Source of the DNA: Chryseobacterium sp. LJ668 | GTDB lineage: Bacteria > Bacteroidota > Bacteroidia > Flavobacteriales > Weeksellaceae | Direction of reading: 5' to 3' | Assembly: GCF_019613955.1 (NCBI RefSeq) | Contig: NZ_CP080443.1 | Location: forward strand, 496,001-560,000 | Length of the DNA stretch: 64,000 nt | Shown here: in pieces, positions 8,306-50,243 of the stretch | Layout of the letters: each line of letters starts with the position of its first letter | Numbering within the stretch: the first letter of the stretch is position 1 | The notes under the pieces: model-generated | Database searches by the model: none | The model's input: only the letters and a program-made list of their open reading frames with translations | What the model was told of the DNA's origin: nothing | Program-made: the position numbers and the translations under genes

Positions 8306-8313
8306 TAAATTTG
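8306..8313 (+). promoter_or_regulatory. -7 element 4 nt before the Nudix gene start
   Basis: TAAATTTG matches TAnnTTTG exactly and ends 4 nt before the ATG at 8318, so transcription would start at or next to the A of the start codon. No TTTG is visible at the -33 position. Confidence 0.55.
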
Positions 8314-8317
8314 AGAT

Positions 8318-8947
8318 ATGGAAAGTTTTGGAAAAGATTTATTACAAAAAATTAAAAAAGCCCAACTTGCAGGAGCCAATGCGCATGGCGTTTTTTCACC
8401 TCCATACCGTGAAGTCTTTACACACGAGCAGATTCTAGAAAAAAATCCAAAATTTGCAGCTGTAAATATTGTATTGTACTTAAGAGATAATGAATGGTAT
8501 TTTCCACTGATCCAACGTACACAAAATGAGCGCGACAGGCATAGCGGCCAAATCTCTTTACCTGGCGGAAAAAGGGAAGAATTTGATAGAGACTTTGCAG
8601 AAACTGCAGTCCGTGAAACTTCGGAAGAAATCGGTTTAGAAAAACCTTATGTAAGAATTATCCGCGAGATGTCGCCAATTTACATTCCACCGAGCAATTT
8701 TTATGTATATCCTTACATTTCCTATTCAAAAAGAAATCCTAAGTTTATCCTTCAGGAAAGTGAGGCTGTAGAAATCATTGAATTTCCAATTACATCATTC
8801 CTTAATCTGCCAGATTCACCGGAAATTATGGCTTTGCCGGGAGCATCCGGAAAAGAAGTGCCGGTCATCAATTTCAACGGATTCATCATTTGGGGTGCAA
8901 CCGCGATGATACTAAGCGAGTTCAGCCAGTTGATTAAAAAAATGTAA
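8318..8947 (+). CDS. Nudix hydrolase, CoA pyrophosphatase type (NudL-like)
   Basis: 209 residues. The segment RTQNERDRHSGQISLPGGK (67-85) is the signature that precedes the Nudix box in the CoA-diphosphatase (UPF0035/NudL) subfamily. The box itself ends RETSEEIGL (99-107), giving the metal-binding glutamates. These enzymes hydrolyse CoA or acyl-CoA to 4'-phosphopantetheine and 3',5'-ADP. The promoter -7 box is so close to the ATG that the mRNA is probably leaderless. The stop codon TAA is part of the next gene's -7 element. Confidence 0.9.
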   Translation: MESFGKDLLQKIKKAQLAGANAHGVFSPPYREVFTHEQILEKNPKFAAVNIVLYLRDNEWYFPLIQRTQNERDRHSGQISLPGGKREEFDRDFAETAVRETSEEIGLEKPYVRIIREMSPIYIPPSNFYVYPYISYSKRNPKFILQESEAVEIIEFPITSFLNLPDSPEIMALPGASGKEVPVINFNGFIIWGATAMILSEFSQLIKKM

Positions 8948-8952
8948 CTTTG
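8945..8952 (+). promoter_or_regulatory. -7 element of the acyltransferase gene, overlapping the Nudix stop codon
   Basis: TAACTTTG matches TAnnTTTG. Its first three bases are the stop codon of the upstream gene. The leader to the ATG at 8977 would be about 18-20 nt. Confidence 0.5.
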
Positions 8953-8976
8953 CATTATATTATGTTTAATTAAACG

Positions 8977-9777
8977 ATGGCGAAAAAGAACATATTCACC
9001 GATTCATTTGGCACTCCTTATTTTTTAAAAAGAATTATCATTTTTATTCTTGGGATTGTGTCTTACAGAAGATTTAATGGGTTCAACAAGCTTAAAATCA
9101 CAGGTACAGAACATTTGGTCGACCTTCCGGATTCTAATGTCCTTTTTGTATCCAATCATCAGACTTATTTTGCCGATGTAGCCGCAATGTATCACGCATT
9201 TTGCGCTGTAAACAATGGCTATTTAAACACTATAAAGAATCCTATTTATCTTCTCAACCCTAGAGTCGATTTTTACTATGTCGCGGCAGAAGAAACGATG
9301 AATAAAGGTATTCTGCCAAAGATTTTTAAAATTGCAGGCGCCGTAACCGTAAAAAGAACATGGAGAGCCGAAGGAAAAAATGTTAATCGAATGGTTGATC
9401 TGGGTGAGATCGATAACATTATGAAGGCTTTAGACAACGGCTGGGTAGCCACTTTCCCGCAAGGTACCACCGCAGCTTTTGCACAGGGAAGAAAAGGAAC
9501 CGCCAAACTGATTAAAAACCAGCGCCCAATTGTGATTCCAATTAAAATAAATGGGTTCAGAAGAGCATTTGATAAAAAAGGCCTTCGTGTAAAAGTAACC
9601 GGTGTAAAACCTACTATGGAATTTAAAAAACCACTAGATATCAATTATGATGAGGAAAATGCGCAGCAAATTCTTCTGAAAATTATGACTGCGATTGAGC
9701 AGACAGAAGACTTCAATGTACTTCATACCTATGATGAAGAAATAAAAGCGAAGAAATCTGAACAACCGAATCCATAA
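8977..9777 (+). CDS. PlsC-like lysophospholipid (1-acyl-glycerol-3-phosphate) acyltransferase
   Basis: 266 residues. One hydrophobic helix near the N-terminus (about 19-30) would tether it to the inner membrane. The acyltransferase motif I is SNHQTYFADV (His61, Asp67): the spacing is H-x5-D, not the usual H-x4-D. Motif III is FPQGT (160-164), where the family normally has FPEGT. A KRTWRAEG segment (126-133) and an IPIKINGF segment fit the rest of the fold. Expected reaction: transfer of an acyl group to lysophosphatidate or a related lipid. The altered motifs leave the exact substrate open. It is followed 15 bp later by a lipoprotein gene and then the Mpl-like ligase. Confidence 0.82.
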   Translation: MAKKNIFTDSFGTPYFLKRIIIFILGIVSYRRFNGFNKLKITGTEHLVDLPDSNVLFVSNHQTYFADVAAMYHAFCAVNNGYLNTIKNPIYLLNPRVDFYYVAAEETMNKGILPKIFKIAGAVTVKRTWRAEGKNVNRMVDLGEIDNIMKALDNGWVATFPQGTTAAFAQGRKGTAKLIKNQRPIVIPIKINGFRRAFDKKGLRVKVTGVKPTMEFKKPLDINYDEENAQQILLKIMTAIEQTEDFNVLHTYDEEIKAKKSEQPNP

Positions 9778-9792
9778 AAATTTAAAGTTATT

Positions 9793-10233
9793 ATGAAAAA
9801 ATTAATAGTGGTATTATTATTAATTATGATCACTGTTTCATGCAGCAGCCAGAAGGCATACTCAGATTTTGACATCAGTTATTCTAAAAGTGGTGGTTAT
9901 GCACCAATCTATGAGAACCTTTTAATCAAGGGCAGCGACGTACAATATTCTTTCGAAGGTCAGGAAAAGAAAATCAAAACGACTTTTCAACTTTCCAACG
10001 AGGAAATTCTGAATTTAAATCAGGTATTGAACGAGAATAACTTCAGACATATTGCCGAAGATCACAAAAAGATATACGACCGTGTTGCTATTGCAATCAA
10101 TGTAAAAAAAGGTAAAAACAGTGCCAATAAAACCGATGCGAGCATGATTATGCCGCAGTCTAAGAAAAACTGGGATCAGGTGGTCAATGCTTTCCAGAAC
10201 ATCATCAATAAAAATGTAAAAAACACTCAATAA
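9793..10233 (+). CDS. Small lipoprotein of unknown function
   Basis: 146 residues with a lipoprotein signal peptide (MKKLIVVLLLIMITVSC, lipobox TVSC). The mature part is about 129 residues with no motif I can name; FDISYSKSGGYAPIYENL and a helix LSNEEILNLNQVLNENNF are the clearest pieces. It sits 15 bp after the acyltransferase and its stop is 2 bp before the TTG start of the ligase, so the three genes are probably co-transcribed. It is likely an envelope protein; nothing more can be said. Confidence 0.8.
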   Translation: MKKLIVVLLLIMITVSCSSQKAYSDFDISYSKSGGYAPIYENLLIKGSDVQYSFEGQEKKIKTTFQLSNEEILNLNQVLNENNFRHIAEDHKKIYDRVAIAINVKKGKNSANKTDASMIMPQSKKNWDQVVNAFQNIINKNVKNTQ

Positions 10234-10235
10234 AT

Positions 10236-11573
10236 TTGAAAACTCATTTCATTGCTATCGGCGGCAGCGCTATGCACAATCTTGCTATTGCGTTGAATGA
10301 TAAAGGATACGAAGTTTCCGGATCAGATGATGCCATTTTTGAACCTTCCAAATCAAGACTGGAAAAAAAAGGAATTCTGCCTGAAGAATTAGGCTGGTTT
10401 CCTGAAAAAATCACTTCAGATATTGACGCTGTCATTCTGGGAATGCACGCACATCAGGACAATCCCGAATTGGCAAAAGCAAAAGATTTAGGCTTAAAAA
10501 TATATTCTTACCCGGAATTTTTATATGAACAGTCGAAAACGAAAACACGTGTTGTAATCGCAGGATCGCATGGTAAAACCACCATTACATCAATGATTCT
10601 TCATGTTTTGAATTTTCATCAGAAAGAAGTAGACTTTATGGTTGGTGCACAGCTGGAAGGTTTTGATTGCATGGTAAAGCTGACTGAAAATAATGATTTT
10701 ATGGTATTGGAAGGTGACGAATATCTTTCATCTCCTATCGATTTGCGTTCAAAATTTTTGCTGTATCAGCCGAATATCGCTTTAATGAGCGGTATTGCCT
10801 GGGATCATATCAATGTTTTTAAAACTTTTGATGATTATATTGATCAGTTTAGAAAGTTTGTAGCAAGCATTACTCCCGGTGGAATTCTGGTTTATAATGA
10901 AGAGGATACTGAAGTAGTAAAAGTAGTAGAAAATGCTGAAAATTATTTCAGAAAAATTCCTTACAAAACCCCGGAATATGAGCTTAGCAACGGACAAGTT
11001 TATCTAAAGACCGAAATGGGCGACATCCCGCTTTCTGTTTTTGGTGCACATAATTTACTGAACCTTGAAGGAGCAAGAAATATCTGTCATCATTTGGGAA
11101 TCATGGATGAAGATTTTTATGATGCCATCATGAGTTTCAAAGGGGCTTCAAAACGTCTGGAGAAAATTGAAAGATCCGACAAGGGAACTTTATACAAAGA
11201 TTTTGCCCATGCTCCGAGCAAAGTAAAAGCTGTAGTCAAAGCGTTCTGTGAGCAATTTAAAAACGAAAAAAAATACGGCTTTTTAGAACTTCACACGTAT
11301 TCCAGTTTAAATCCTGTATTTTTGGAGCAGTACGACCATGCGATGGATGGCTTGGATGAAGCGATTGTTTTCTATTCTGAAGATGCTTTAAAGATCAAAC
11401 GGATGGACCCCATTTCTCCTGATCTGATTAAAGAAAAATTTAAAAATGAAAATCTGAATGTTTTTACCAACGCTGAAGAACTTCATGCTTATTGGGAATC
11501 ATTGGATAAAACCCAGGGAGTTTATATGATGATGAGCTCGGGTAACTTTGGTGGATTGGATTTGACGAAATAA
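10236..11573 (+). CDS. mpl: Mpl-like UDP-N-acetylmuramate:peptide ligase (Mur ligase family)
   Basis: 445 residues. It starts HFIAIGGSAMHNLAIAL, the Rossmann-like nucleotide loop of MurC/Mpl proteins, followed by SGSDDAIFEP. The ATP-binding P-loop is GSHGKTT (110-116). Mpl rejoins recycled murein tripeptide to UDP-MurNAc; MurC adds L-Ala. The MHNLA variant of the first motif is what I associate with Mpl. The start is a TTG at 10236, 2 bp after the previous stop; no in-frame ATG gives the conserved N-terminus. A strong bidirectional terminator follows at 11587. Confidence 0.85.
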   Translation: MKTHFIAIGGSAMHNLAIALNDKGYEVSGSDDAIFEPSKSRLEKKGILPEELGWFPEKITSDIDAVILGMHAHQDNPELAKAKDLGLKIYSYPEFLYEQSKTKTRVVIAGSHGKTTITSMILHVLNFHQKEVDFMVGAQLEGFDCMVKLTENNDFMVLEGDEYLSSPIDLRSKFLLYQPNIALMSGIAWDHINVFKTFDDYIDQFRKFVASITPGGILVYNEEDTEVVKVVENAENYFRKIPYKTPEYELSNGQVYLKTEMGDIPLSVFGAHNLLNLEGARNICHHLGIMDEDFYDAIMSFKGASKRLEKIERSDKGTLYKDFAHAPSKVKAVVKAFCEQFKNEKKYGFLELHTYSSLNPVFLEQYDHAMDGLDEAIVFYSEDALKIKRMDPISPDLIKEKFKNENLNVFTNAEELHAYWESLDKTQGVYMMMSSGNFGGLDLTK

Positions 11574-11586
11574 AAATTACAATATT

Positions 11587-11621
11587 AAAACTCCTCTTTT
11601 GAATCAAAAGAGGAGTTTTTA
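11587..11621. terminator. Bidirectional terminator between mpl and the aldo/keto reductase
   Basis: Perfect inverted repeat with 16-base arms (AAAACTCCTCTTTTGA at 11587-11602, complement at 11604-11619) and T-tracts on both strands, between convergent genes. Confidence 0.9.
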
Positions 11622-11625
11622 TTGC

Positions 11626-12501
11626 TTAAATATCCGCAACAGAATTCAACATTTTCTGTTCCCAGACAGGATCTTTCGGATCAAAAAATAATCTTTTCCC
11701 GGTATCTAACGAACGGACAATATTCATTTCGTCTTCTGACAATTCAAAATCAAAAACATTGAAATTTTCTTCGATTCTTGACGGTGTCACAGACTTAGGA
11801 ATTACGCAGAAACCTTCCTGTAAATGCCATCTCAGAATCACCTGAGCAACCGTCTTATGATGCTTTTCTGCAATATTTTTTAGATCCTGATTTTCCAAAA
11901 GTCCTGCATTACCATTCCCTAATGGACTCCAAGGCTGAGTGATGATATTATTTTCTTTATCATACATCTGAAGTTCTTTTTGCTGAAAAATCGGGTGCAG
12001 TTCTATCTGATTGATCACTGGAAGAACTGTCGAATTTTCTTTTAATTCCTCCAGTTTTTCAACCGTGAAATTGCAGACACCGATCGCTTTTATTTTGCCT
12101 TCCTGATGCAGTTCTTCCAATGCTCTCCAGGCACCCAGAAAATCCCCGAATGGCCAATGGATCAGATACATATCTAAATAATTCAGCTGCAGTCTGTCGA
12201 GCGTTCTCTGGAAAGCACTTTTTGCCTCCTCATAAACATGACTTTGAACCCAGAGTTTTGAAGTGATAAATAACTCGTTTCTGTCTACTCCACTATTCTT
12301 TATCGCATTTCCTACAGCCGTTTCATTTTGATAAATTGAAGCTGTATCGATCATTCTGTAACCAGTTTCAATTGCTTTAATTACGGCATTTTCACACTCT
12401 TCAAAATCCTCCATCTGCCATACTCCGAAACCTAAAGCCGGAATATCAATTCCGTTATTTAATGTTATTACAGGTTGTCCTGTGTATGTTTTTTGTTGCA
12501 T
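11626..12501 (-). CDS. Aldo/keto reductase
   Basis: 291 residues, a typical single-domain TIM-barrel length. The catalytic tetrad is visible: MIDTASIYQNE (Asp, Tyr), FITSKLW (Lys) and MYLIHWPFG (His). The C-terminal NADPH-binding part is IPKSVTPSRIEENF. These enzymes reduce aldehydes and ketones with NADPH, often methylglyoxal or 2,5-diketogluconate-type substrates. It is 46 bp downstream of a LysR gene on the same strand; the pair plus the divergent quinone reductase looks like an electrophile-response group. Its terminator is the shared hairpin at 11587-11621. Confidence 0.93.
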   Translation of the reverse strand: MQQKTYTGQPVITLNNGIDIPALGFGVWQMEDFEECENAVIKAIETGYRMIDTASIYQNETAVGNAIKNSGVDRNELFITSKLWVQSHVYEEAKSAFQRTLDRLQLNYLDMYLIHWPFGDFLGAWRALEELHQEGKIKAIGVCNFTVEKLEELKENSTVLPVINQIELHPIFQQKELQMYDKENNIITQPWSPLGNGNAGLLENQDLKNIAEKHHKTVAQVILRWHLQEGFCVIPKSVTPSRIEENFNVFDFELSEDEMNIVRSLDTGKRLFFDPKDPVWEQKMLNSVADI

Positions 12502-12547
12502 AATTGCTTTTTTTATTTAATATGATATTATTTATTATAATTCCTGA

Positions 12548-13453
12548 TTAATGAATTTTGCCCATAATCTTTCGGAACAAACCTTTGATATGGTCGATTT
12601 CATTCTTATATAGTGTCTGTTTTCTACACCCAAAATATAAAGTATTTATCAATTTTTTTTCACCTTCCCAAATTAATTGTACATCACCATTTTCAATTTC
12701 ACTTTTACATAAAAAATCAGGAACCACCGCCAAACCGGTTCCGCCTTTCAGGCAACGAATGATTGAATTCAGATTGGGAACAATATAATTGGGCCTGAAA
12801 TTGGGTTTATGTCCGAAATTCAGCAGCCAAAACTGGAATAGATGCTCCATATCTCCGGTTGTGCCATACCACTTTTCCTGTTTAAGCCAATCTTCAACTT
12901 TCTGAAAATCTTTGGCTTTTAAAACCTTATTAAAACTTTCTGCATCTACATTTTTTCCGCCCACTAAAACTATTTGTTCAGAAGAAAAAGCCTCGTGCTG
13001 TATATTGGGTGATGTACCTTTTTTCGGCGTTATGATTAAATCTAGAATACCTTTATCCAACTGATCAAGCATTTCAGGATATTCACCGAAACCGATAATT
13101 AAATTAAAATCCAAACTCGAAACATATTGCTCCAGAGTAGTCTGAAAGGTCTCAAAACACATTCCGACACTTATTGTAGGTGTAGATTTTTCCGTAGATT
13201 TTTGAAAGTTTTTTTCTACATCTTCCAGTTTCGTCAACGGTTCGGAAATCGCATTAAACAGCACTTTTCCTCTTTCTGTAGGAATCATTTTTCTCCCTGT
13301 CCGGTCAAATAATTTATAACCCACATAAGATTCTAATGAACCGAGATGAAGACTCACTCCGGGCTGTGATATAAATAATGAATCTGCCGCACCTGTTAAA
13401 GTTCCGGTTTTATAGATCGCTTTAAAGGTTCTGTACCATTCTAAATTAACCAT
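12548..13453 (-). CDS. LysR-family transcriptional regulator
   Basis: 301 residues. The N-terminal winged helix-turn-helix covers about 1-60 (FKAIYKTGTLTGAADSLFIS, then QPGVSLHLGSLE). The remainder is a periplasmic-binding-type effector domain starting near STPTISVG. It lies between the aldo/keto reductase (same strand) and a divergent MdaB-like gene, which is the common layout for LysR regulators that control the neighbour. The 232-bp region between 13454 and 13685 is the probable operator zone. The effector is unknown. Confidence 0.92.
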   Translation of the reverse strand: MVNLEWYRTFKAIYKTGTLTGAADSLFISQPGVSLHLGSLESYVGYKLFDRTGRKMIPTERGKVLFNAISEPLTKLEDVEKNFQKSTEKSTPTISVGMCFETFQTTLEQYVSSLDFNLIIGFGEYPEMLDQLDKGILDLIITPKKGTSPNIQHEAFSSEQIVLVGGKNVDAESFNKVLKAKDFQKVEDWLKQEKWYGTTGDMEHLFQFWLLNFGHKPNFRPNYIVPNLNSIIRCLKGGTGLAVVPDFLCKSEIENGDVQLIWEGEKKLINTLYFGCRKQTLYKNEIDHIKGLFRKIMGKIH

Positions 13454-13651
13454 TATTTTTTTGTGAATTGTGAATTTGCTTCTTCAATAAATTTTCTATT
13501 TTCAGATTGATAGCGTTTGTTCACGTGAAATTATTTTGTCAATTTCTTTTGACAAAGTTAGAATTAAGTTTTTAAAAATTGACATGTTTGCTATCATAAT
13601 TATGATACATATATATAATTTATATTATTTTCGTTATACAAAACTCTACCA

Positions 13652-13659
13652 TAACTTTG
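13652..13659 (+). promoter_or_regulatory. -7 element of the quinone reductase gene
   Basis: TAACTTTG (TAnnTTTG) lies 26 bp before the ATG at 13686, in the divergent region shared with the LysR gene. No convincing -33 TTTG, which would fit activator dependence. Confidence 0.5.
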
Positions 13660-13685
13660 CATTATAAAATTTAAATATTTACAGA

Positions 13686-14303
13686 ATGAAAAAAGTATTA
13701 ATTATCAATGGTGGTCAAAATTTCGGACACTCAGGAGGAAAATACAACCAAACGATTGCAGAAAACACTTTAAAAGTTCTAAAGGAATTTGAAAATATCG
13801 AAGTTAAAATCACAAATATCAGCGAAGGTTATGATAAAAATGAGGAAGTAGAAAAGTTTGTATGGGCAGATTTTATTATTTACCACACACCGATTTGGTG
13901 GTTTCAGCTTCCCAATGGTTTTAAAAAATACATTGATGAAGTGTTTACAGCAGGTCATACAAAAGGTATTTATATGAGTGATGGAAGATCTTCGGACAAT
14001 CCGAAAATTAACTATGGTACCGGCGGAATGCTTGGTGGAAGAAAATATATGATCACCACAAGCTGGAACGCACCAGAAACAGCTTTTACACTTCCCGGAG
14101 AATTTTTTAATGAAACCAATGTTGATACGGGAGCATTGTTTGGTTTTCACAGAATGAATGCTTTTGTCTCATTAGAACAAATGGAGAGTTTTCATTTTCA
14201 TGATGTAGAAAAAAATGCAAACATCGAACGCGATATGAATCTGTACAGAGAACACCTTGCAAATGTTTTTGAAAAAGAATTAAAAACACAATTAGCTTCA
14301 TGA
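13686..14303 (+). CDS. MdaB-like NAD(P)H-dependent quinone oxidoreductase (flavodoxin fold)
   Basis: 205 residues. The first strand and phosphate loop (KVLIINGGQNFGHSGGKYN) and WADFIIYHTPIWWFQLPNGF match the flavodoxin-like modulator of drug activity B family. GTGGMLGGRKYMITTSWNAP is the second flavin-contact segment. These FAD enzymes make two-electron reductions of quinones with NADPH and protect from oxidative stress. It is divergent from a LysR gene, which probably regulates it. A hairpin shared with the convergent CMD gene follows. Confidence 0.9.
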   Translation: MKKVLIINGGQNFGHSGGKYNQTIAENTLKVLKEFENIEVKITNISEGYDKNEEVEKFVWADFIIYHTPIWWFQLPNGFKKYIDEVFTAGHTKGIYMSDGRSSDNPKINYGTGGMLGGRKYMITTSWNAPETAFTLPGEFFNETNVDTGALFGFHRMNAFVSLEQMESFHFHDVEKNANIERDMNLYREHLANVFEKELKTQLAS

Positions 14304-14334
14304 GATCTATTTCATAGTAAGCAAAAGTAGACAC

Positions 14335-14369
14335 AAAAAAAGCTCCTCATATCTGAGAAGCTTTTTTTT
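14335..14369. terminator. Bidirectional terminator between convergent genes
   Basis: AAAAAAGCTCCTCA pairs with CTGAGAAGCTTTTTT (one imperfect pair), T-tracts on both strands. It serves the quinone reductase and the CMD gene. Confidence 0.75.
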
Positions 14370-14378
14370 ACAAATTTT

Positions 14379-14819
14379 CTATTGTTTAGAAACCTGCAAA
14401 TGTGTCGTGATTGCAATTCTGTTCCACATATTAATGGTGACAATTGCCATAATAATGCTTTTAATTTTCTCTTCATCAAAAAGCTTGCTGGCTTTTTCGT
14501 AAGTTTCGTCAGTTAAACCGTTTTGACTGATCTGGGTTATTTCTTCGGTCATTGCGAGGATCAATTTTTCTTCTTCTGTGAAAAGATCGGTTTCTCTCCA
14601 TGCATTAAGAAGGAAAAGTCTTTGTGCCGTTTCGCCATATTTTAACGCATCTTTTGTGTGCATATCCAAACAGAATGCACATTGGTTGATTTGTGAAGCA
14701 CGAGTTTTTATCAGTTCTTTCTGAATGTTGGTTAATGATGTGGTTTGCAAAGACATTTCCAGATTGATCATTGCTTTGTAGGGTGCAGAATTTGCTGCGA
14801 TGTTTACTCTTGAGTTCAT
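14379..14819 (-). CDS. Carboxymuconolactone decarboxylase-family (AhpD-like) protein
   Basis: 146 residues. The redox motif is QCAFCLDMH (Cys47-x-x-Cys50, His54), the AhpD-type active site found in peroxidase-linked members of the CMD family. The rest is all-helical (LTEEEKLILAMTEEIT). Such proteins act as alkylhydroperoxidases or as disulfide relay partners. It is 66 bp downstream of a Crp/Fnr-like regulator on the same strand, a pairing that suggests the regulator controls it. Confidence 0.9.
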   Translation of the reverse strand: MNSRVNIAANSAPYKAMINLEMSLQTTSLTNIQKELIKTRASQINQCAFCLDMHTKDALKYGETAQRLFLLNAWRETDLFTEEEKLILAMTEEITQISQNGLTDETYEKASKLFDEEKIKSIIMAIVTINMWNRIAITTHLQVSKQ

Positions 14820-14885
14820 TTTTATGATGTTTTAAATTTCTGATACAAATGTCATATTTAAAAATATCAAAAATCTTAAACTGGT

Positions 14886-15458: not shown

Positions 15459-15475
15459 TTTTGAAATTGAATACT

Positions 15476-15483: not shown

Positions 15484-15523
15484 ACTTTATTTTTCTAGTT
15501 TTACAATCACAAAACAGGAAATC

Positions 15524-25990: not shown

Positions 25991-26093
25991 ATTTTGTTTT
26001 TTAAATTTCGCAGATGTAATCTTAAAATTCTAAAGGAATAAATAATTTTCATTCTAAAATAGTGTAAATAGAATGAAACACAAAGTAAAATCT

Positions 26094-26101
26094 TATTTTT
26101 G
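26094..26101 (+). promoter_or_regulatory. -7 element 4 nt before the HipA-family gene start
   Basis: TATTTTTG, exact TAnnTTTG, ending 4 nt before the ATG at 26106. It lies inside the frame that an earlier ATG (26073) would use, so 26106 is the better start. Predicted leaderless transcript. Confidence 0.5.
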
Positions 26102-26105: not shown

Positions 26106-26879
26106 ATGTTGGATTTACGAACAGTTACAGTAATGCGTTATATTCTTCCGTTGCGGGAGGGCGGTTCGCTTCCTGCTTTGGCAGAAGCTGATGATGATTT
26201 TAAATATGTTTTAAAATTTCGTGGTGCAGGTCATGGAGTAAAAATGCTGATTTCTGAGCTTTTAGGTGGGAAAATCGCAGAAGCTTTAGGTTTACAGATT
26301 CCAGAACTGGTTTTTGCCAATCTTGATGTGGATTTTGGCAGAACAGAAGCTGATGAAGAAATTCAGGATCTACTGAAGCTTTCGGAGGGTTTAAATTTAG
26401 GATTACATTATCTTTCAGAATCGATTGCATTTGATTCAAATATTAAAGTTGAACCTCTTTTAGCTTCGAAAATTGTCTGGCTGGATGCTTTTATTACCAA
26501 TATTGACCGTACTTTTAGGAATACCAATCTTCTGATGTGGCATAAAGAATTGTGGGTTATTGATAATGGTGCCTCATTTTATTTTCACCACTCTTGGCAA
26601 AATTTTGATGTTGCTGCGAAGACCCCGTTCAAATATGTAAAAGACCATGTTTTACTTCCGCAGGCCACAATGTTGGATGAAGCTGAAAAGTTTGCCCATG
26701 AAGTTTTAAATGATGAGGTTTTCAGAGAGATCGTCAATTTGATCCCGCAAGATTGGTTACATTGGAACGATGCTGAAGAAAGCCCGGACGAGATCCGTGA
26801 GGTGTATTTTAACTTTATGAAAACACGATTAGAAAATTCTCAAATCTTTGTAAACGAAGCCAAAAATGCAAGAGGATAA
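26106..26879 (+). CDS. HipA-family kinase (stand-alone, no HipB)
   Basis: 257 residues from MLDLRTVTVMRYILPLREGG, the start usual for this Bacteroidota group. The kinase core is intact: ATP-binding Lys37 in YVLKFRGAGHG, catalytic Asp134 in TNIDRTFRNTNLL and metal-binding Asp153 in VIDNGASF. HipA kinases phosphorylate proteins (in E. coli glutamyl-tRNA synthetase) in toxin-antitoxin modules. Here no HipB-like DNA-binding antitoxin is adjacent; instead the DUF3037 gene overlaps the end by 14 bp. The pair is conserved as I recall it, so DUF3037 may be the partner. Confidence 0.88.
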   Translation: MLDLRTVTVMRYILPLREGGSLPALAEADDDFKYVLKFRGAGHGVKMLISELLGGKIAEALGLQIPELVFANLDVDFGRTEADEEIQDLLKLSEGLNLGLHYLSESIAFDSNIKVEPLLASKIVWLDAFITNIDRTFRNTNLLMWHKELWVIDNGASFYFHHSWQNFDVAAKTPFKYVKDHVLLPQATMLDEAEKFAHEVLNDEVFREIVNLIPQDWLHWNDAEESPDEIREVYFNFMKTRLENSQIFVNEAKNARG

Positions 26880-27249
26880 AATATACGAATACGCCGTAAT
26901 TCGCCTGGTGCCAAAGGTTGAAAGAGAAGAATTTTTCAACATAGGGCTTATCATGTTTTCAAAAAAAGAAAAATTTATACGGGTGGAATTTTATCTTTGT
27001 CCAGATAAATTTAAGTTAATCAAAAGCAAACTCGATTATGATGATATCATTCATAATCTTGAAAGTTTTCAGAAAATTGCCAATGGTGCAAAAGACGGCG
27101 GGCCGGTTGCCGAGATGGAAATTCCGGAACGTTTCCGCTGGCTGACTGCTTTGAGAAGCGCAGTTGTACAAACCTCAAGACCTCATCCCGGAAAATCTAA
27201 AGACCTGGAAGAGACTTTTGGTAAACTTTTTGAGGAGTTAGTAAAATAA
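26866..27249 (+). CDS. DUF3037 family protein
   Basis: 127 residues. The N-terminus YEYAVIRLVPKVEREEFFNI followed by GLIMFSK is the DUF3037 hallmark. Mixed alpha/beta, with RFRWLTALRSAVVQTSRPHPG near the end. Its first 14 bp overlap the HipA-family gene, implying coupled translation in one operon. Function unknown; it may regulate or neutralise the kinase. Confidence 0.92.
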   Translation: MQEDKIYEYAVIRLVPKVEREEFFNIGLIMFSKKEKFIRVEFYLCPDKFKLIKSKLDYDDIIHNLESFQKIANGAKDGGPVAEMEIPERFRWLTALRSAVVQTSRPHPGKSKDLEETFGKLFEELVK

Positions 27250-38496: not shown

Positions 38497-39108
38497 TTAA
38501 TCTTTTTCGTTATATGGAAGCCTGTTGGTGATCGATCTTCCCAAGGAAATTTCGTCAGCATATTCTAATTCATCACCTACCGAGATTCCCCGTGCAATAC
38601 TTGAAAACTGAATGCCCGAATTTTTGAATTTTTTATAAATATAATAAGCGGTGGTATCACCTTCCATCGTAGCACTCAAGGCAAAAATAAATTCTTTTGC
38701 GTGGCCGTGCTGCAGTTTTTTTTCAATACTTGGAATATTCAGCTGATGAGGTCCCACACCTTCCATCGGAGAAATTTTTCCTCCTAAAATCAAATATTTT
38801 CCTCTATATTTTCCGGTATTTTCTATAGCAATGACGTCACGCACATCTTCAACAATGCAAATCAGCTCATCACTGCGTTTATCGTTGCTGCAGATTTCGC
38901 AGATATCAAAATCTGAAAAATTATGACATTCTTTGCAATATTTGATTTCATTGACCAGATTGATAATAGAATTTCCCAAACCTGTCGCCCTGGAATTAGG
39001 CTGTTTAAGTAAATGAAGCGCAAGACGCAATGCCGTTTTCCTGCCAATTCCCGGAAGTCCGGAAATTTCCTCAACTGCTTTTGCCAATACCTTACTTGGA
39101 TAATCCAT
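38497..39108 (-). CDS. recR: Recombination protein RecR
   Basis: 203 residues. Helix-hairpin-helix (LPGIGRKTALRLALHLL), a Cys4 zinc finger (CKECHNFSDFDICEIC), and a Toprim domain (CIVEDVRDVIAIENTGKYRG). Binds gapped DNA with RecO and RecF in the RecA-loading pathway. Predicted leaderless transcript: the -7 box ends 4 nt before the ATG. Confidence 0.96.
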   Translation of the reverse strand: MDYPSKVLAKAVEEISGLPGIGRKTALRLALHLLKQPNSRATGLGNSIINLVNEIKYCKECHNFSDFDICEICSNDKRSDELICIVEDVRDVIAIENTGKYRGKYLILGGKISPMEGVGPHQLNIPSIEKKLQHGHAKEFIFALSATMEGDTTAYYIYKKFKNSGIQFSSIARGISVGDELEYADEISLGRSITNRLPYNEKD

Positions 39109-39112: not shown

Positions 39113-39120
39113 CAAAAATA
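39113..39120 (-). promoter_or_regulatory. -7 element 4 nt before the recR start
   Basis: Reads TATTTTTG on the minus strand and ends 4 nt before the ATG at 39108. No -33 TTTG visible. Confidence 0.5.
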
Positions 39121-39226
39121 AGAATTATAGTTGAGAATTTTAAGATTGTAATCCGGAGAAGCATCACATTCTGATTATAAAAATTCTCTTTTTAAATGTT
39201 TTAATCTTTAAATTATTTAAAACCAT

Positions 39227-40536: not shown

Positions 40537-40550
40537 ATAAAAATAAATTT

Positions 40551-43570: not shown

Positions 43571-43600
43571 AATAGAAGATAATTTAATGGTATGTAGCTG

Positions 43601-43608
43601 CAAATTTA
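43601..43608 (-). promoter_or_regulatory. -7 element of the ferredoxin reductase gene
   Basis: Reads TAAATTTG on the minus strand, 30 bp before the ATG at 43570. Confidence 0.5.
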
Positions 43609-43722
43609 CTAATTTTAATGCGAAGCATATTTAATCGAACTTAAATAAAAAACTGAGATTTATCAAATATCGTACTTAAAAAACTGCATTTTATTTGGCA
43701 GTGTTTTTGTAAAATTTATAAC

Positions 43723-44493
43723 ATGAGAAAATTATTTAATATTATAGCAATATTTGTATTCTTTTTAGGTCAGAGTCAGATTACCAATATCACCGATGGA
43801 GAATCTTTAACACTTCGGATTCATTACGGATTTTTAAACGCCGGATCTGCTAACCTTACCGCAAAAAAATCTGCTTATAAAGGTGTACCGCATTTATATG
43901 TAAAAGGAACCGGACAGACTACGGGCGCCGTTAAAGCTTTCTTTAAAGTAGAGGATGTTTATGAAAGCTACATCAATATGCAGACAGAACTGCCTAGCTT
44001 TTATGTAAGAAATGTAAAAGAAGGAACATACAGACAGCATTTACAGACTGTTTTTAATCATGATAACCACACCTTGGTTTTGACGGATAAAAAAACTCCT
44101 GCCAATGGTTCTAAAACCATAAAATCTGTAAAAGGCGTTCAGGATATGCTCTCTTGTTTCTATTTTTTAAGAAGCAAGACGACAGCAGAATTAAAAACCG
44201 GAACTGTTTTTAATATGAACGTTTGGATTGATGATGAGATGTTTCCATTTCAGCTAAAAGTCGTAGGAACAGAAAATTTAAAAACAAAATTCGGAACGAT
44301 TAATGCGCTGAAAATTATTCCGTCTGTAAAAAGCGGAAGGGTTTTTAAACAAAAAGAAGGAGTGACGATGTGGGTTTCCAATGATGCCAATCACATTCCG
44401 TTGCTTCTAAAAGCCGAACTGGCAGTAGGATCGCTGAAAGCCAGCTTGGATGACTACAAAAATGTAAAATATCCTTTAAAGTTTACAAAATAG
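43723..44493 (+). CDS. DUF3108 family secreted protein
   Basis: 256 residues. Signal peptide MRKLFNIIAIFVFFLGQSQ. The family pattern is SLTLRIHYGFLNAGSANLTAK-like at the start, GTGQTTGAVKAFFKVEDVYE and VWVSNDANHIPLLLKAEL near the end. It is a beta-rich periplasmic protein of unknown role. A strong hairpin follows at 44539. Confidence 0.88.
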   Translation: MRKLFNIIAIFVFFLGQSQITNITDGESLTLRIHYGFLNAGSANLTAKKSAYKGVPHLYVKGTGQTTGAVKAFFKVEDVYESYINMQTELPSFYVRNVKEGTYRQHLQTVFNHDNHTLVLTDKKTPANGSKTIKSVKGVQDMLSCFYFLRSKTTAELKTGTVFNMNVWIDDEMFPFQLKVVGTENLKTKFGTINALKIIPSVKSGRVFKQKEGVTMWVSNDANHIPLLLKAELAVGSLKASLDDYKNVKYPLKFTK

Positions 44494-44538
44494 TTTTAAT
44501 TCAGGAGGGCTGTAACAATATATTGTCAGAAGAAAAAT

Positions 44539-44571
44539 AAAAGCCAAAGCAGAATTTGCTTTGGCTTTTTT
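44539..44571. terminator. Terminator after the DUF3108 gene
   Basis: AAAAGCCAAAGCA pairs perfectly with TGCTTTGGCTTTT around GAATT, followed by T. Confidence 0.88.
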
Positions 44572-44995
44572 CCTGCATCTATCACAGTACATTTTTTGCG
44601 GTGTGCTGATACCGGACTTATCACATGTGTTTTTAGAATCTTGTAATTTTTTTTTCATCTCAAGCGTCTCATACAGAGCCTTTCGGCTCTGAATTATGAC
44701 ACTTTAGTTTCATCAAGGTGTTTTATAAATGTTTATATCGGGAAATATCATCATTTATGGTTTTAGAATCAAATTTTGTTTTATTTAACAAATATGTTTA
44801 AATAACCATTTATATTGATACAAAAATACACAGATATAGATATATAATTTCTAAAAACACTTTAGATATATATCGCATCATCTGTAGATATTTATCGACA
44901 AACTATTGTACTTGATAATTTTACGGTTAAAAGTTGGAGGAATTTTTAAAAATTAGGAATCTTGAGCGTGATGAATGATTCTTCTTATTATAAAA
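44572..44995. other. Gene-free gap with a small hairpin
   Basis: A perfect stem (CAGAGCC, loop TTTC, GGCTCTG) lies at 44674-44691, flanked by further partly pairing bases (GTCTCAT and ATTATGAC). It has no T-tract and may be a dispersed repeat. The rest is AT-rich with no gene supported. Confidence 0.5.
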
Positions 44996-45637
44996 TCATT
45001 TATGATCTTTAATGAGTTCGATGAGTTCAACGATATTTTCAATCTTTAACTTATCAAACAACCGCTTTTTTTGAGTACTTACCGTATTCTGCTTGATGTT
45101 GAGTTTATTTGCAATTTCAAGATTTCCATACCCTTTCGCATACATTTCGGCGATCTGCATTTCTCTTTCTGTAAGGCGTGACAAAGGATTTAAGATATCA
45201 CCGTTTCGCAACGAATTCATCAGCAAAGCCTGTACATCTGCTGAAATATATTCACCATCTCTAATCATCTTTTCTAAAGCATCTTTGATTTCGGATTCTT
45301 CGCTGAGTTTACTAAGAAAACCATTTGCACCTGCATTAATAAATTTAAGCGACTGTGCATATTCTGTACCTGTGAAAATAAGAATTTTAGTTTCCGGACT
45401 TATTTTTTTTATTTCTGGTAAAACACTGAAGCTGTTACCGTCAGGAAAATGAGCATCAATTATTGCTATGCTGATAGAATTCATTTTCATCAATTCTAGT
45501 GTCTGTTGCAGAGTAGATGCTTGAAAAACCTCATGATCTACATTCATTTCCTCAAGTAAAAACATAATCCCCTGTCTTATCAGACTGTGATCATCGGCAA
45601 GCAGAAATGTGACTGATGTTTGTTCAGAATAATTCAT
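44996..45637 (-). CDS. NarL/LuxR-family response regulator
   Basis: 213 residues. The receiver is canonical: Asp15-Asp16 (LLADDHSLIRQG) and phospho-acceptor Asp61 (IAIIDAHFPDG). The C-terminal helix-turn-helix is LTEREMQIAEMYAKGYGNLE and IANKLNIKQNTVST. Its start overlaps the kinase stop by 4 bp, so the two are co-translated. Targets unknown. Confidence 0.94.
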   Translation of the reverse strand: MNYSEQTSVTFLLADDHSLIRQGIMFLLEEMNVDHEVFQASTLQQTLELMKMNSISIAIIDAHFPDGNSFSVLPEIKKISPETKILIFTGTEYAQSLKFINAGANGFLSKLSEESEIKDALEKMIRDGEYISADVQALLMNSLRNGDILNPLSRLTEREMQIAEMYAKGYGNLEIANKLNIKQNTVSTQKKRLFDKLKIENIVELIELIKDHK

Positions 45638-47364
45638 CTGTGAATCTTTAAATTGATCGTGAAAAACACATCAGTACCTTCATGCTGTTCACTTGAAACC
45701 GAAATATTTCCTGAATACAATTCTATAAGCTCTTTGCATAAGCTTAACCCAAGACCTGCACCCAAATTTTCTACCTCATTAGAAATAATTCCTTGATAAT
45801 AAGGTTCAAATATTTTTTCTACATCCGATTTTGAAATCCCGACTCCTGTATCACTTATCTGTGTGATCAGCGCAATCGTATTTTCATCGGCAAGCTTTGC
45901 TGTAGTTGTAACAGTGATCTGCCCGTTTTCTGTAAATTTATTGGCGTTTCCTAGAATATTCATAAAAATCTGATTGATTTTAGTATTATCAGAAAAAATC
46001 ATCAAATCCGGATCTATATTTTTATTAACTATGAATTTATTATTTCTAGTTTGGATGTAAGGTTCAATTGAATTTAGAATAGAATCTATTTCAGTATTAA
46101 GATTAAAAACAACGGGTATCAGTTTATTTTCTACATGCTGATTCTTTGTATATTCAAGAATCTGATTGGCTTGCATTAGTAGAGTATTATTGGTAAAGCT
46201 TATGGATTTCAGATATTCTTTGATGCTTTCATCAGTTGTTTTTTTATTAATTCTATTGATGAAAATACCTATAATTTTCAATGGCGATCTCAATTCGTGG
46301 CTAAGCATACCCAAAATCCTATTTTTAAAATTCAGGTTTTCACTGATTTGTTTATTGGCAGCATTCAATTTTCTTTCATATATGAAAGCAATTCTGGTAA
46401 AATACATGATTAAAATGGAGACGATGAACATCAAAACCATTAATCCCAATACCAGATATTTTCTGATTTTGTTGCTTTCAGAATTTTGGTCGGCATATTC
46501 TTTTTCCAGATCTGACTTAGAATCTTTAACTGCAAACTCGTAAATATTCATTAATCCATTGCTATATACCAATAATGAATTGAAGGTTGAATAAAATTTA
46601 CTGTTGTCATTTTTATCTCTGTCTTTATTCTTCCCAACATTCACTCGAATTTTCTGCACTTCTTTAGTATAGTGCTTTGTGATTGACTTTATAATACTGT
46701 CAAATTCAGTTTTTATGGTGGGTACATCTAAGATTTTACCTCCTTTTACAGTGACCACAACGCTATCTTTTCTTACATTTTCCTTTCCTGCTATTGCATC
46801 ACCTAAACGACCAAACAAACCTTTTTTCTTTAGCGTATCAGAATAAGTTTTTGTCTGAACTTCAAATTTATCAAAATTGTAATCGAAGTTATATTTTTTA
46901 AGCTTTGGTAAATCTTCGGGGATTTTTATATTTGATTTAGTAGAAAACTCATAGGTAGAATCTACTTTCAGTTTCAAATTTTTAGCATCTACAGCTTCAC
47001 CCTTGTGTGATGCCAAAATAATTTTCAAATTTGGGTTCTGAAATTTGAAATTATTAATACTGTCCAGATTTTTTATCAGCTTATTAACAGAAATAAAATA
47101 AAATTTTAAGTACTCATCATTTTCACTTACTACATATTTCTGAAAATAATCCTGAGCATTGTTGAGTTCTTTTCTAGAGTCGTCAGTCAAATTTTCCAAC
47201 CGGTGAACCTCACTTATCTGTTTTTCAATAAATTTTAGATTTCTATTATTGACAAACTCATTATAAAAAAATCCAGCTATGATACACTGTATTAGTAAAA
47301 TGCAAATAATAAGAGAATATTGCACAACTTTTCTCAATCTAAAACTCATTGATTTTCTAATCAT
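45634..47364 (-). CDS. Membrane sensor histidine kinase
   Basis: 576 residues. One membrane helix at about 13-35, a large periplasmic or extracellular domain (about 36-302, mostly helical), a second helix at about 303-325, then HisKA with His356 (LGMLSHELRSPLK) and HATPase motifs (ILGNANKFTEN, DTGVGISKSD, GAGLGLSLCKEL). It phosphorylates the NarL-type regulator encoded next. The HisKA type is usually paired with OmpR-like regulators; here it is paired with a NarL type. Confidence 0.93.
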   Translation of the reverse strand: MIRKSMSFRLRKVVQYSLIICILLIQCIIAGFFYNEFVNNRNLKFIEKQISEVHRLENLTDDSRKELNNAQDYFQKYVVSENDEYLKFYFISVNKLIKNLDSINNFKFQNPNLKIILASHKGEAVDAKNLKLKVDSTYEFSTKSNIKIPEDLPKLKKYNFDYNFDKFEVQTKTYSDTLKKKGLFGRLGDAIAGKENVRKDSVVVTVKGGKILDVPTIKTEFDSIIKSITKHYTKEVQKIRVNVGKNKDRDKNDNSKFYSTFNSLLVYSNGLMNIYEFAVKDSKSDLEKEYADQNSESNKIRKYLVLGLMVLMFIVSILIMYFTRIAFIYERKLNAANKQISENLNFKNRILGMLSHELRSPLKIIGIFINRINKKTTDESIKEYLKSISFTNNTLLMQANQILEYTKNQHVENKLIPVVFNLNTEIDSILNSIEPYIQTRNNKFIVNKNIDPDLMIFSDNTKINQIFMNILGNANKFTENGQITVTTTAKLADENTIALITQISDTGVGISKSDVEKIFEPYYQGIISNEVENLGAGLGLSLCKELIELYSGNISVSSEQHEGTDVFFTINLKIHR

Positions 47365-47391
47365 TCTTGTGTGTAATTATAGTATAAATTT

Positions 47392-47428
47392 AATAAAAAA
47401 TCCTGTAAAAAATTAATTTACAGGATTT
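47392..47428 (-). terminator. Terminator after pheS
   Basis: On the minus strand AATCCTGTAAA pairs with TTTACAGGATT, followed by T6. Confidence 0.85.
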
Positions 47429-47452
47429 GAATTTATTTTAATTATAAATTGA

Positions 47453-48463
47453 TTATAATGACTTAAATTGTTCTAGTGTTCTAATGTCATTTTCGAAGAA
47501 CATTCTGATGTCGCTCATTTGGTAAAGAAGCATTGTAATTCTTTCAATACCCATTCCAAAAGCATAGCCTGAATATTTCTCAGAATCTATATTTACGTTT
47601 TTCAAAACTGCAGGATCTACCATTCCGCAACCCATAATTTCTAACCAACCTGTTCCTTTTGTGATTCTGTAATCTGTTTCAGAGTTTAATCCCCAGTATA
47701 CATCAATCTCTGCACTTGGTTCTGTAAAAGGAAAATACGAAGGTCGCATTCTAATTTTAGATTTTCCGAAAAGTTCTGTTGTAAAAAACTGAATGGTCTG
47801 TTTTAAATCTGCAAAGCTTACATTCTCATCGATATATAAACCTTCAATCTGATGAAAGATACAGTGTGAGCGTGACGAGACCGCTTCATTTCTAAAAACC
47901 CTTCCCGGAGACAAAATTCTTATCGGCGGCTGATTTTCTTCCATATAACGGATCTGAACAGACGAAGTATGTGTTCTTAGAAGAATATCGGGGTTCTGCT
48001 CAATAAAAAAAGTATCCTGCATATCTCTTGCCGGGTGATATTCTGGTAAATTAAGTGCCGTAAAATTATGCCAATCGTCTTCAATCTCCGGCCCGTCTGC
48101 CACAGCGAACCCAATAGATTTAAAAATATCTATAATCCTGTTTTTCACTAAATTGATAGGATGTCTAGAACCCAGTTCTGAAGGAAAGGCCGGTTTTGTA
48201 AGATCTTCTTTCTCGAGGATAACAGAAGATTCAGCTGAACTTTTAAAGCCCTCCAATTTGGCAGCAACAGCTTGTTTCAAAGAATTGATTTTTTGTCCGA
48301 AATCTTTTTTCTGGTCGTTCGGAACAGTTTTTAATGATTCATAGAAATCATTCAGTACTCCTTTTTTACCGTTATACTTGATTCTGAAGTTCTCTATCTC
48401 ATCTTTGGATGTTGCGCTGAAGCTCTGTACTTCGATGAGTAATTCTTCTATCTTTTCTGTCAT
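47453..48463 (-). CDS. pheS: Phenylalanine-tRNA ligase alpha subunit
   Basis: 336 residues, standard length. N-terminal coiled-coil tRNA arm (about 1-85), then the class II core: HPINLVKNRIIDIFKSIGF, HPARDMQDTFF, LLRTHTSSVQIR, VFRNEAVSSRSHCIFHQIEG, SYFPFTEPSAEIDVYW and YAFGMGIERITMLLY. Charges tRNA(Phe) with the beta subunit, whose gene is not adjacent here. Confidence 0.97.
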   Translation of the reverse strand: MTEKIEELLIEVQSFSATSKDEIENFRIKYNGKKGVLNDFYESLKTVPNDQKKDFGQKINSLKQAVAAKLEGFKSSAESSVILEKEDLTKPAFPSELGSRHPINLVKNRIIDIFKSIGFAVADGPEIEDDWHNFTALNLPEYHPARDMQDTFFIEQNPDILLRTHTSSVQIRYMEENQPPIRILSPGRVFRNEAVSSRSHCIFHQIEGLYIDENVSFADLKQTIQFFTTELFGKSKIRMRPSYFPFTEPSAEIDVYWGLNSETDYRITKGTGWLEIMGCGMVDPAVLKNVNIDSEKYSGYAFGMGIERITMLLYQMSDIRMFFENDIRTLEQFKSL

Positions 48464-48492
48464 TATATTAACCCTTTCAAAAAATGTAACTG

Positions 48493-48500
48493 CAAAAATA
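48493..48500 (-). promoter_or_regulatory. -7 element of pheS
   Basis: Reads TATTTTTG on the minus strand, 29 bp before the ATG at 48463. Confidence 0.5.
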
Positions 48501-48575
48501 AGGTTTTCAGTTTAAAAAGTTTTTAATTATCATAAAAAATCTGCCTTTTCACAAAAACAGACTTTAATTAAAAAA

Positions 48576-49241
48576 TTATTTCTTTTCCAAAGCTTTCATA
48601 TTGATCTGAAGACTGACCTCATCTTTTATAACGCCATTTTCTGCAGGACTTTGGAATCTCACGCCAAATTCTTCTCTTTTTATATCTTTTGGTTCGGTTG
48701 CAATACTCACAACTCCATCATTTACAGAAACATTTGCTTTGAACTGAACAGGTTTTGTAATACCTTTTACCGTTAAATTACCATCCAATATTGTATTATA
48801 ATCGCCTTGATCAGACGGAGTCACTTTTGTAATTTCGTAGGAGGCAGTTGGAAATTTTTCTGTTTCAAAGAAATCTCCGCTTTTTAAATGTCCATTTAGT
48901 TTATCCAACTGATCTGCATCATCCTGTAAATCTACAGAGGTAAGAGAATTCATATCCACTACGAATTGTCCGCTTTCCAATTGCCCATCTTTTACTGTAA
49001 CATCACCGCTTTCAAAAGTAATGGTTCCGAAATGACTCGTATTTTCAGACTTGAAAACTTTATAACCCTTCCACTCCACTCTGCTGTTTAAAGTATCAAC
49101 AACATATTTATTGCCGTCTTTTGTCGTAGCCACTTGGTTTCCTTCATTTATCAACGGTTTTTCTTTTTGACATGAGATAACTACAGCTGCAGCAAAAAGT
49201 GCAGGAATAGCCAGAGAGAATAATTTTCTTTGCATTATCAT
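48576..49241 (-). CDS. YceI-family lipocalin-like lipoprotein
   Basis: 221 residues. Signal peptide ending AAAVVISC (lipobox VISC), start either at 49241 or at the second Met (49235). The YceI fold follows: SRVEWKGYKVFKSENTSHFG, SGDFFETEKFPTASYEIT, VKGITKPVQFKANVSV and FGVRFQSPAENG. A beta-barrel that binds isoprenoid-type lipids. It is divergent from the ABC ATPase, with 66 bp between. Confidence 0.92.
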   Translation of the reverse strand: MIMQRKLFSLAIPALFAAAVVISCQKEKPLINEGNQVATTKDGNKYVVDTLNSRVEWKGYKVFKSENTSHFGTITFESGDVTVKDGQLESGQFVVDMNSLTSVDLQDDADQLDKLNGHLKSGDFFETEKFPTASYEITKVTPSDQGDYNTILDGNLTVKGITKPVQFKANVSVNDGVVSIATEPKDIKREEFGVRFQSPAENGVIKDEVSLQINMKALEKK

Positions 49242-49295
49242 AAAATTTAAGTCTTTGCTAAATTACTAAAAATATGCCAGTGTTTTCTAAAACCG

Positions 49296-49303
49296 TATTT
49301 TTG
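49296..49303 (+). promoter_or_regulatory. -7 element 4 nt before the ABC ATPase start
   Basis: TATTTTTG, exact TAnnTTTG, ending 4 nt before the ATG at 49308; no -33 TTTG visible. Confidence 0.5.
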
Positions 49304-49307
49304 TACA

Positions 49308-50243
49308 ATGCTACTAGAGATAAACAACTTACATTTTTCACATACCAAAGAACAGCCCTTGTTCCGAAATTTTAACCTCAAACTTGAAGAGGGGAAAATA
49401 CTGGCGTTGGCAGGCGAAAGCGGCTGTGGAAAATCCACCTTATTGAGCCTTGTATATGGGCTTTTAAACTGGGAACAGGGTGAAATTTTGTTTGAAGACA
49501 GAAAACTGATGGGACCTAAAGGAAACCTCGTTCCGGGAGAAGCTGAAATGAAATTTGTGGCACAGAGTTTTGACCTGATGCCTTATGCGACAGTAGCTGA
49601 CAATGTGGGAAAATTTATTTCTAATATTAATTTAGCTAAGAAAAAAGAAACCGTAAACGAGCTTTTAGAGGTTGTAGGATTGGTAGAATCGGCTAATGCA
49701 CTTCCTAAAAATCTGAGTGGCGGACAACAGCAAAGAGTTGCCATCGCAAGAGCACTTTCTGTTTTACCAAAATTACTTTTGCTGGATGAGCCTTTCAGCC
49801 ATCTCGATTACGCCCGGAAAATCGAACTTCGGGAAAAGCTTTTCAGGTATGTGAAAGAAAAAAATATTTCACTGATCATTTCTACCCACGAACTGCAGGA
49901 CATTATCCCGTGGCTTGACCAGATTGTTATTCTTGAAAACGGAAGACTTATACAGAATGACAACCCGGAAGAAACCTATAAAAACCCTTATAATACTTAT
50001 GTAGCAAAACTTTTTGGAGAGGTCAATATCTTTACTGAATCTGAAATGAGCGATTTTGGAATTTCAAACTTTGCTTATTATCCAAATCAGATACACATTT
50101 CTGAAAATGGTTTTAATGCTGAGGTCATGGAAAGCAGGTTTGCAGGAAATCATTACTGGAATAAAATTATTTCTAACAATAAAGAACTGATTATGCATAC
50201 CAACGAAAAGATTGGTGGCACACTGAAAATTTCTTTCAAATAA
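49308..50243 (+). CDS. Orphan ABC transporter ATP-binding protein
   Basis: 311 residues. Walker A GESGCGKST (36-44), Q-loop FVAQSFDLMPY, signature LSGGQQQRVAIARAL, Walker B LLLLDEPFSHLD and H-loop STHELQ. The last 80 residues form a TOBE-like C-terminal domain (MESRFAGNHYWNKI). That architecture is typical of FbpC/PotA-type importers. No permease or binding protein is adjacent, so the partner must be encoded elsewhere. Predicted leaderless transcript. Confidence 0.9.
   Translation: MLLEINNLHFSHTKEQPLFRNFNLKLEEGKILALAGESGCGKSTLLSLVYGLLNWEQGEILFEDRKLMGPKGNLVPGEAEMKFVAQSFDLMPYATVADNVGKFISNINLAKKKETVNELLEVVGLVESANALPKNLSGGQQQRVAIARALSVLPKLLLLDEPFSHLDYARKIELREKLFRYVKEKNISLIISTHELQDIIPWLDQIVILENGRLIQNDNPEETYKNPYNTYVAKLFGEVNIFTESEMSDFGISNFAYYPNQIHISENGFNAEVMESRFAGNHYWNKIISNNKELIMHTNEKIGGTLKISFK

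Follow-up and report, generated by a model that had tools for sequence, protein, structure and literature searches.

Promoter boxes 4 or 5 nt before the start codon and a predicted class of leaderless genes in Chryseobacterium sp. LJ668

Four boxes and their genes

The DNA analysed here, called the window below, is a stretch of 64,000 nt from the genome of Chryseobacterium sp. LJ668, a member of the Weeksellaceae (contig NZ_CP080443.1, positions 496,001 to 560,000), and four of its genes have a promoter box of the -7 type that ends just 4 nt before the ATG. A first-pass annotation had proposed that these four genes are transcribed as leaderless mRNAs, and when the sequence was re-read all four boxes and their 4-nt gaps were confirmed exactly. 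On the forward strand, the box TAAATTTG (8306..8313) is separated by agat from the ATG at 8318 of a Nudix hydrolase gene (PF00293; 8318..8947), the box TATTTTTG lies at 26094..26101, followed by cgtt and the ATG at 26106 of a HipA-like kinase gene (PF20613; 26106..26879), and TATTTTTG is found again at 49296..49303, followed by taca and the ATG at 49308 of a gene for an ABC transporter ATPase (PF00005; 49308..50243). The fourth box, also TATTTTTG, is on the reverse strand (39113..39120), from where ctct leads to the ATG at 39108 of recR (TIGR00615; 38497..39108). All four are strict boxes, and the gene behind each is predicted to be leaderless. At -8 to -4 of each box lies an A/T tract that would be the -18 element relative to the start site; it occupies 8298..8302 (forward) at the Nudix gene and, as read from the sequence, 26086..26090 (forward) at the HipA-like gene, 39124..39128 (reverse) at recR and 49288..49292 (forward) at the ABC gene, and it is found also in the orthologues of all four.

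At the background of neighbouring gaps, 0.12 such sites would be expected by chance in 64 kb, and the probability of four or more is 9e-6; at the genome's own gap-4 rate 0.88 would be expected (P 0.012), making the window moderately rich in them. A further gap-4 site, at 49774, is internal to the ABC gene, and a gap-5 site before 35839 is likewise internal to a gene, the frame being open for 261 more codons upstream. The HipA-like gene has an in-frame ATG at 26073 that is open in this genome, and the other 29 rows of its orthologue set have no ATG there. It overlaps the DUF3037 gene (PF11236) directly downstream, and the two (window 26106-27246) probably form a single operon. The nearest named relatives of the RecR protein are Chryseobacterium proteins (97% to C. 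aahli).

Box-to-ATG spacing in this and other genomes

Gaps were counted between every TAHHTTTG and the ATGs that open a reading frame (ORF) of at least 100 aa, in 40 evenly spaced 20-kb stretches (800 kb) from the first two thirds of the main contig (positions 1 to 2,264,000 of 3,435,163); the sample and the window together amount to 864 kb, about one quarter of the 3,469,496-base assembly. Outside the window the histogram is bimodal, with counts at gaps 0 to 13 of 0, 1, 1, 3, 11, 12, 3, 2, 1, 0, 1, 3, 2 and 4, and then a wide rise between 14 and about 30. The 11 sites at gap 4 and 12 at gap 5 compare with a mean of about 1.5 at neighbouring gaps, giving Poisson probabilities of 7e-7 and 9e-8, respectively, if gaps 0-3 and 6-12 are averaged as the background. 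With seven control patterns, permutations or relatives of the box that included its reversal, each gap from 0 to 13 had 0-5 sites, and no peak was seen. The first-pass annotation had envisaged a distinct class with a gap of exactly 4 nt; the gap distribution does have a second mode that sets such a class apart, and this mode covers gaps 4 and 5 and not 4 alone. In the whole genome, with no ORF filter, TANNTTTGN4ATG occurs 125 times and its reversed pattern 52 times, and the corresponding numbers for TAHHTTTGN4ATG are 106 and 33. Among the 211 box-led ORFs of sample and window, 28 (13%, background still included) are at gap 4 or 5, and if scaled roughly to the whole genome, the genes with this spacing, all predicted to be leaderless, would number about 100.

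The 15 gap-4 ORFs of at least 100 aa in sample and window all reach an in-frame stop within 22 codons upstream, as expected of true gene starts, and several of the gap-5 ORFs are open much further upstream and hence are probably internal. Start codons counted at gaps 4 and 5 were ATG (15 and 13), GTG (1 and 2) and TTG (2 and 8). By Pfam, the gap-4/5 set includes MnmE, two DinB-type polymerases, SelO, chorismate synthase, Dus, aspartate decarboxylase, GH3-type proteins, RuvC, an Rrf2 regulator, a nitroreductase and an ABC ATPase; most members are enzymes, and no one pathway is prominent. The class may be biased towards DNA repair (recR, ruvC and two dinB), the two dinB genes being paralogues (L021:1728-2873 and L025:7616-8755) that both have the box at gap 4.

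The gap-4/5 sites carry features of sigma-A promoters. The -7 element TAHHTTTG is present at all four window sites, and an AT-rich element centred at about -18 is present at gap-4/5 sites. G at the two middle box positions is seen in 1/29 gap-4/5 sites, compared to 27/172 at gaps 14-30 and 275 of all 1320 TANNTTTG boxes in the 864 kb. At -7, -6 and -5 upstream of the box, A or T occupies all three positions in 19/28 gap-4/5 sites and 96/150 leadered sites, compared to 207/786 other boxes, and in orthologues these positions are 93 to 99% A/T. The first-pass annotation had also pointed out that a -33 TTTG is missing from the four window promoters. This is so, and there is not even a TTG at a spacer of 17-23, but as a peculiarity of these genes it does not hold: TTTG was found at 0/28 gap-4/5 sites of this genome, 12/150 leadered sites and 14/145 orthologue rows, and since it is scarce at leadered sites too, and in Baez 2019, it does not discriminate members from non-members. 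A leaderless-specific loss of the -33 element, considered from TTG counts (0/28 versus 25/150), was dropped, as 26/145 orthologue rows have TTG.

In nine genomes of the family (80 kb each, 720 kb in total) gap 4 has 19 sites, gap 5 has 8, and no other gap between 0 and 13 has more than 6, and a tenth, more distant genome (G021) has none at gap 4 and one at gap 5. Across the class, and with no ORF filter, the gap-4 pattern is more frequent than its reversed control in all 17 genomes examined, in three of them only slightly (54/48, 70/62 and 51/49). In stretches of six Bacteroidia genomes that belong to other families (520 kb), sites are only weakly enriched at gaps 3-6 (2, 4, 1 and 4), and in seven genomes of other classes (280 kb) there is no peak, with one site at gap 5 and two at gap 7.

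Conservation of the spacing was followed gene by gene within the family. For the window genes, the rows examined, with this genome included, were the best 50 of 60 places for recR (the ten left being the nine lowest-scoring and one duplicate), 30 of 53 for the Nudix gene, 30 of 56 for the ABC gene and 30 of 38 for the HipA-like gene. Three gap-4 genes from outside the window, picked solely as widespread families likely to be single-copy, were represented by the 20 best other places of 30 (aroC), 30 (dusB) and 28 (panD). A strict box at gap 4 or 5 was found in 39/50 rows for recR, 19/30 for Nudix, 19/30 for ABC, 14/30 for HipA, 17/20 for aroC, 17/20 for dusB and 20/20 for panD, a pooled 145 of 196 rows (118 at gap 4 and 27 at gap 5), 4 of 200 having been left out because no ATG was nearby. 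Seven permuted boxes combined gave a single row at gaps 4/5 among the same 196. If boxes ending TTCG or TTTA are admitted, a criterion added once the data had been seen, the numbers become 39 (recR), 23 (Nudix), 23 (ABC) and 17 (HipA). Judged by eye, the sequence flanking the box has mostly diverged among orthologues.

The strongest test is provided by the HipA-like gene, where the box moves with the first ATG. The length of the N-terminus varies by up to four codons between genera, and in the 18 of 27 rows that have a box within 10 nt, the distance from box to first ATG is 4-6 nt while that from box to the conserved Met10 is 31-45 nt. AroC has a one-codon difference at the N-terminus, which the box follows. 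A PNGase F gene intended as leadered control matched 8 of 32 genomes and yielded no loci, and neighbours of recR were taken instead. Among closer relatives, the box gaps of three such leadered neighbours span 14-38 nt (34 orthologues, 2 without box), 14-19 nt (37, 3 without box) and 19-28 nt (32 orthologues), and the other two of the five are nearly boxless (33/34 and 29/29 rows without box).

A broader set of 80 named recR loci (80 retained out of 572 relatives, some from the same genomes as the family rows) has 34 at gap 4, 23 at gap 5, 3 at other gaps and 20 without a strict box. Of these 20, 11 (L340, L342, L356-L358, L361, L364-L367 and L372) carry TANNTTCG in place of TANNTTTG at gap 4 or 5, and one has it at gap 6. 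Beyond the family (the 28 best new loci from 80 genomes), a strict box at gap 4/5 precedes recR in 8 of 18 Bacteroidia, with a TTTA form at gap 4 in three more, and in none of the 10 loci read from outside the class. Three more distant recR genes carry TANNTTTA (L229, L237 and L238), and this variant and TANNTTCG suggest a lineage-specific drift of the -7 box. The recR genes of an Epilithonimonas-type group (L328, L329, L335, L056, L060 and L072) have no box and share a different, loosely similar upstream sequence, possibly another promoter.

Other orthologues have features of their own. One dusB (L405) has GTG instead of ATG exactly 4 nt past the box and may be a leaderless gene that starts with GTG. 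Seven of the 20 panD rows (L413, L416, L417, L418, L421, L425 and L426) have the box embedded in TTATTAATAAATTTG, and the palindrome TTATTAATAA overlaps the panD promoter and may be an operator. Upstream of the Nudix gene (L095, L096, L097, L101 and L114), a stretch resembling TTAACNTTNCTTTAAAAC occurs about 33-50 nt before the ATG in several genera, and is possibly an extra promoter or regulatory element.

Probable leaderless transcription and its alternatives

The prediction of leaderless mRNAs in the first-pass annotation is well supported by the gap peak, the sparseness of gaps 6-13, the promoter signature and the spacing kept in relatives, and it is very probable that sigma-A -7 boxes are placed in these genes such that the mRNAs begin at the ATG. 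The boxes would represent -7 elements of promoters used by the primary sigma factor (sigma-A/sigma-ABfr), RNA polymerase would start on, or within one base of, the A of the ATG, and transcripts starting at this A would therefore have no 5' leader; ribosomes are proposed to begin on the 5'-terminal AUG, either as 70S particles, as the first-pass annotation supposed, or through 30S plus IF2. We infer the start site itself from the 4-5 nt spacing between box and start site mapped in F. johnsoniae.

A box beside the ATG could instead be a translation signal, bound by the ribosome or protein S1, on a longer mRNA from an unseen upstream promoter. Bacteroidota lack Shine-Dalgarno sequences and show an A-rich or AT-rich bias before start codons, for which S1 has been proposed as the cause (PMC5397173). 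However, such a signal would need neither the TA, nor the G-free middle positions, nor an A/T tract in front of the box, the scarcity of gaps 6-13 is not obviously expected of a tunable ribosome signal, and the 250 nt upstream of each of the four window genes contain no second strict box; we regard this explanation as improbable. It is about as improbable that the promoters are real and the annotated ATG is wrong, with translation from a downstream codon behind a normal leader. Many HipA-like proteins have a Met10, and a start there would be preceded by a leader of 27 nt, but the residues before it are kept (LRTVTV or close) while synonymous codons vary, and it is the first ATG, not Met10, that the box tracks. 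The orthologues of RecR, DusB and PanD share one N-terminus in nearly all rows, the one-codon shift in AroC is mirrored by the box, and matches to family profiles begin between residues 1 and 15. Least credible of all is that an AT-rich genome produced the spacing by chance: the motif is short and the boxes many, as counted above, but the control patterns are flat and the spacing is kept in orthologues.

More weight belongs to a variant that overlaps the preferred explanation, namely that some genes at least have leaders of 1-3 nt and not exactly none, though this too is unlikely. Spacing from box to start site can be 4 or 5 nt, which would allow transcripts at gap-5 sites to begin one base ahead of the A, and four HipA rows are at gap 6. 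The main spacing in orthologues is gap 4, not 6-7, and a pyrimidine directly precedes the ATG in 23/27 gap-5 rows, compared to 139/310 presumed leadered promoters at the same position (P 7e-5), and in 75/118 gap-4 rows, compared to 127/310 (P 3.5e-5), as if the transcription start were steered onto the A; both P values are optimistic, because the orthologue rows are related by descent. Among the named gap-5 recR loci, 22/23 have T before the ATG. A genome-wide rule of T before ATG at gap 5 was rejected, as the gap-5 sites of this genome do not have it and the weaker pyrimidine form is seen only in the orthologue set.

Several further observations weigh against leaderless transcription of the whole class. 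A is found before the ATG in 7 of 13 gap-5 sites of this genome and 5 of 8 in the nine-genome sample; the initiator signature fails in both sets, and some gap-5 sites may have a 1-nt leader or be due to chance. The 8 TTG starts at gap 5 in this genome are above the level of neighbouring gaps. In the nine genomes, gap 5 (8 sites) barely exceeds gap 8 (6), and the variant ending in TTTA also gives 5, 3 and 6 sites at gaps 3-5. Orthologues with no strict box within 40 nt make up 9/50 for recR, 8/30 for Nudix, 7/30 for ABC, 12/30 for HipA (three of them without nearby ATG), 3/20 for aroC and 2/20 for dusB, and the rows are themselves the best-scoring places. One leadered control is fairly fixed, with 23 of 32 at gap 25.

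Bacteroidota initiate translation largely without Shine-Dalgarno pairing. In this genome, all four copies found of the 16S rRNA gene end in GGCTGGAACATCTCATTTTA and are without CCTCC, the anti-Shine-Dalgarno sequence, therefore the classic pairing is unavailable; loss of CCTCC has been reported for Chryseobacterium, Elizabethkingia and Riemerella (PMC10783764). This loss is by itself no explanation, since the recR arrangement occurs in other families of the class (where only the upstream region of recR was read). It is conceivable, though we hold it only tentatively, that selection in Flavobacteriia, some of which are without the 16S anti-Shine-Dalgarno, maintains a fixed group of leaderless genes, with 5'-AUG initiation as a standing second regime of translation. 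The group would include recR, aroC, dusB, panD, the Nudix hydrolase and the ABC ATPase; ruvC, dinB and mnmE, observed in this genome only, may belong to it as well. If true, the leaderless arrangement would be no by-product of promoter drift, and 5'-AUG initiation could be regulated separately, for instance by responding differently to stress or to the balance of IF2 and IF3. If genera share such a leaderless set, it would lend itself to studying how ribosomes independent of Shine-Dalgarno pairing find start codons, and gene finders would gain a start-codon rule for this group: TAHHTTTG 4 or 5 nt before the ATG.

Comparison with known systems

The closest parallels come from the same phylum and the same -7 box, in F. 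johnsoniae, F. psychrophilum and Bacteroides thetaiotaomicron. In F. johnsoniae (Baez 2019, PMC6847099), many boxes lie 4 or 5 nt from the start site, matching the spacing here, the middle box positions are without G, A/T motifs occur near -18 and -28, and the -33 element is much less evident; 87% of leaders there are longer than 10 nt, hence about 13% are of 10 nt or less. Leaderless mRNAs make up 5.5% of 890 CDSs in F. psychrophilum, with the box at -12 to -5 (PMC9723704), and about 3.7% of 5' UTRs in B. thetaiotaomicron are shorter than 10 nt (PMC7366714). As represented by the portions of these papers available to us, the three studies measured transcripts in one species each, whereas the genes described here are predicted to be leaderless and were followed one by one across genera.

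A more distant parallel is provided by the TA-led leaderless genes of Actinobacteria and Deinococcus-Thermus, where TANNNT lies about 10-12 nt before the start codon (Zheng 2011, PMC3160421); there, too, the promoter box is close to the start codon, but the box itself differs. The same study listed Bacteroidetes among clades with many 'atypical' genes and allowed that non-Pribnow boxes may be missed, and we infer that TAnnTTTG may be the reason for these genes in Bacteroidetes. The upstream bias of Bacteroidetes has been tied to leaderless mRNA and/or S1 (Nakagawa 2017, PMC5397173), and Flavobacteriia without CCUCC have been linked with leaderless mRNA (PMC10783764); both, in the sections available, give statistics at the level of the phylum and no named gene set with a fixed gap between box and ATG, whereas genes are named here. 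A gene-by-gene conservation of leaderless genes across Bacteroidota, or a bimodal gap histogram, was not found in the titles and abstract openings of the earlier reports listed by our literature searches. Since leaderless mRNA has already been measured in, and connected with, the phylum, the finding adds predicted genes to an established class, and what appears to be new is the gene-by-gene conservation of the putative leaderless arrangement, in a genome without an anti-Shine-Dalgarno sequence.

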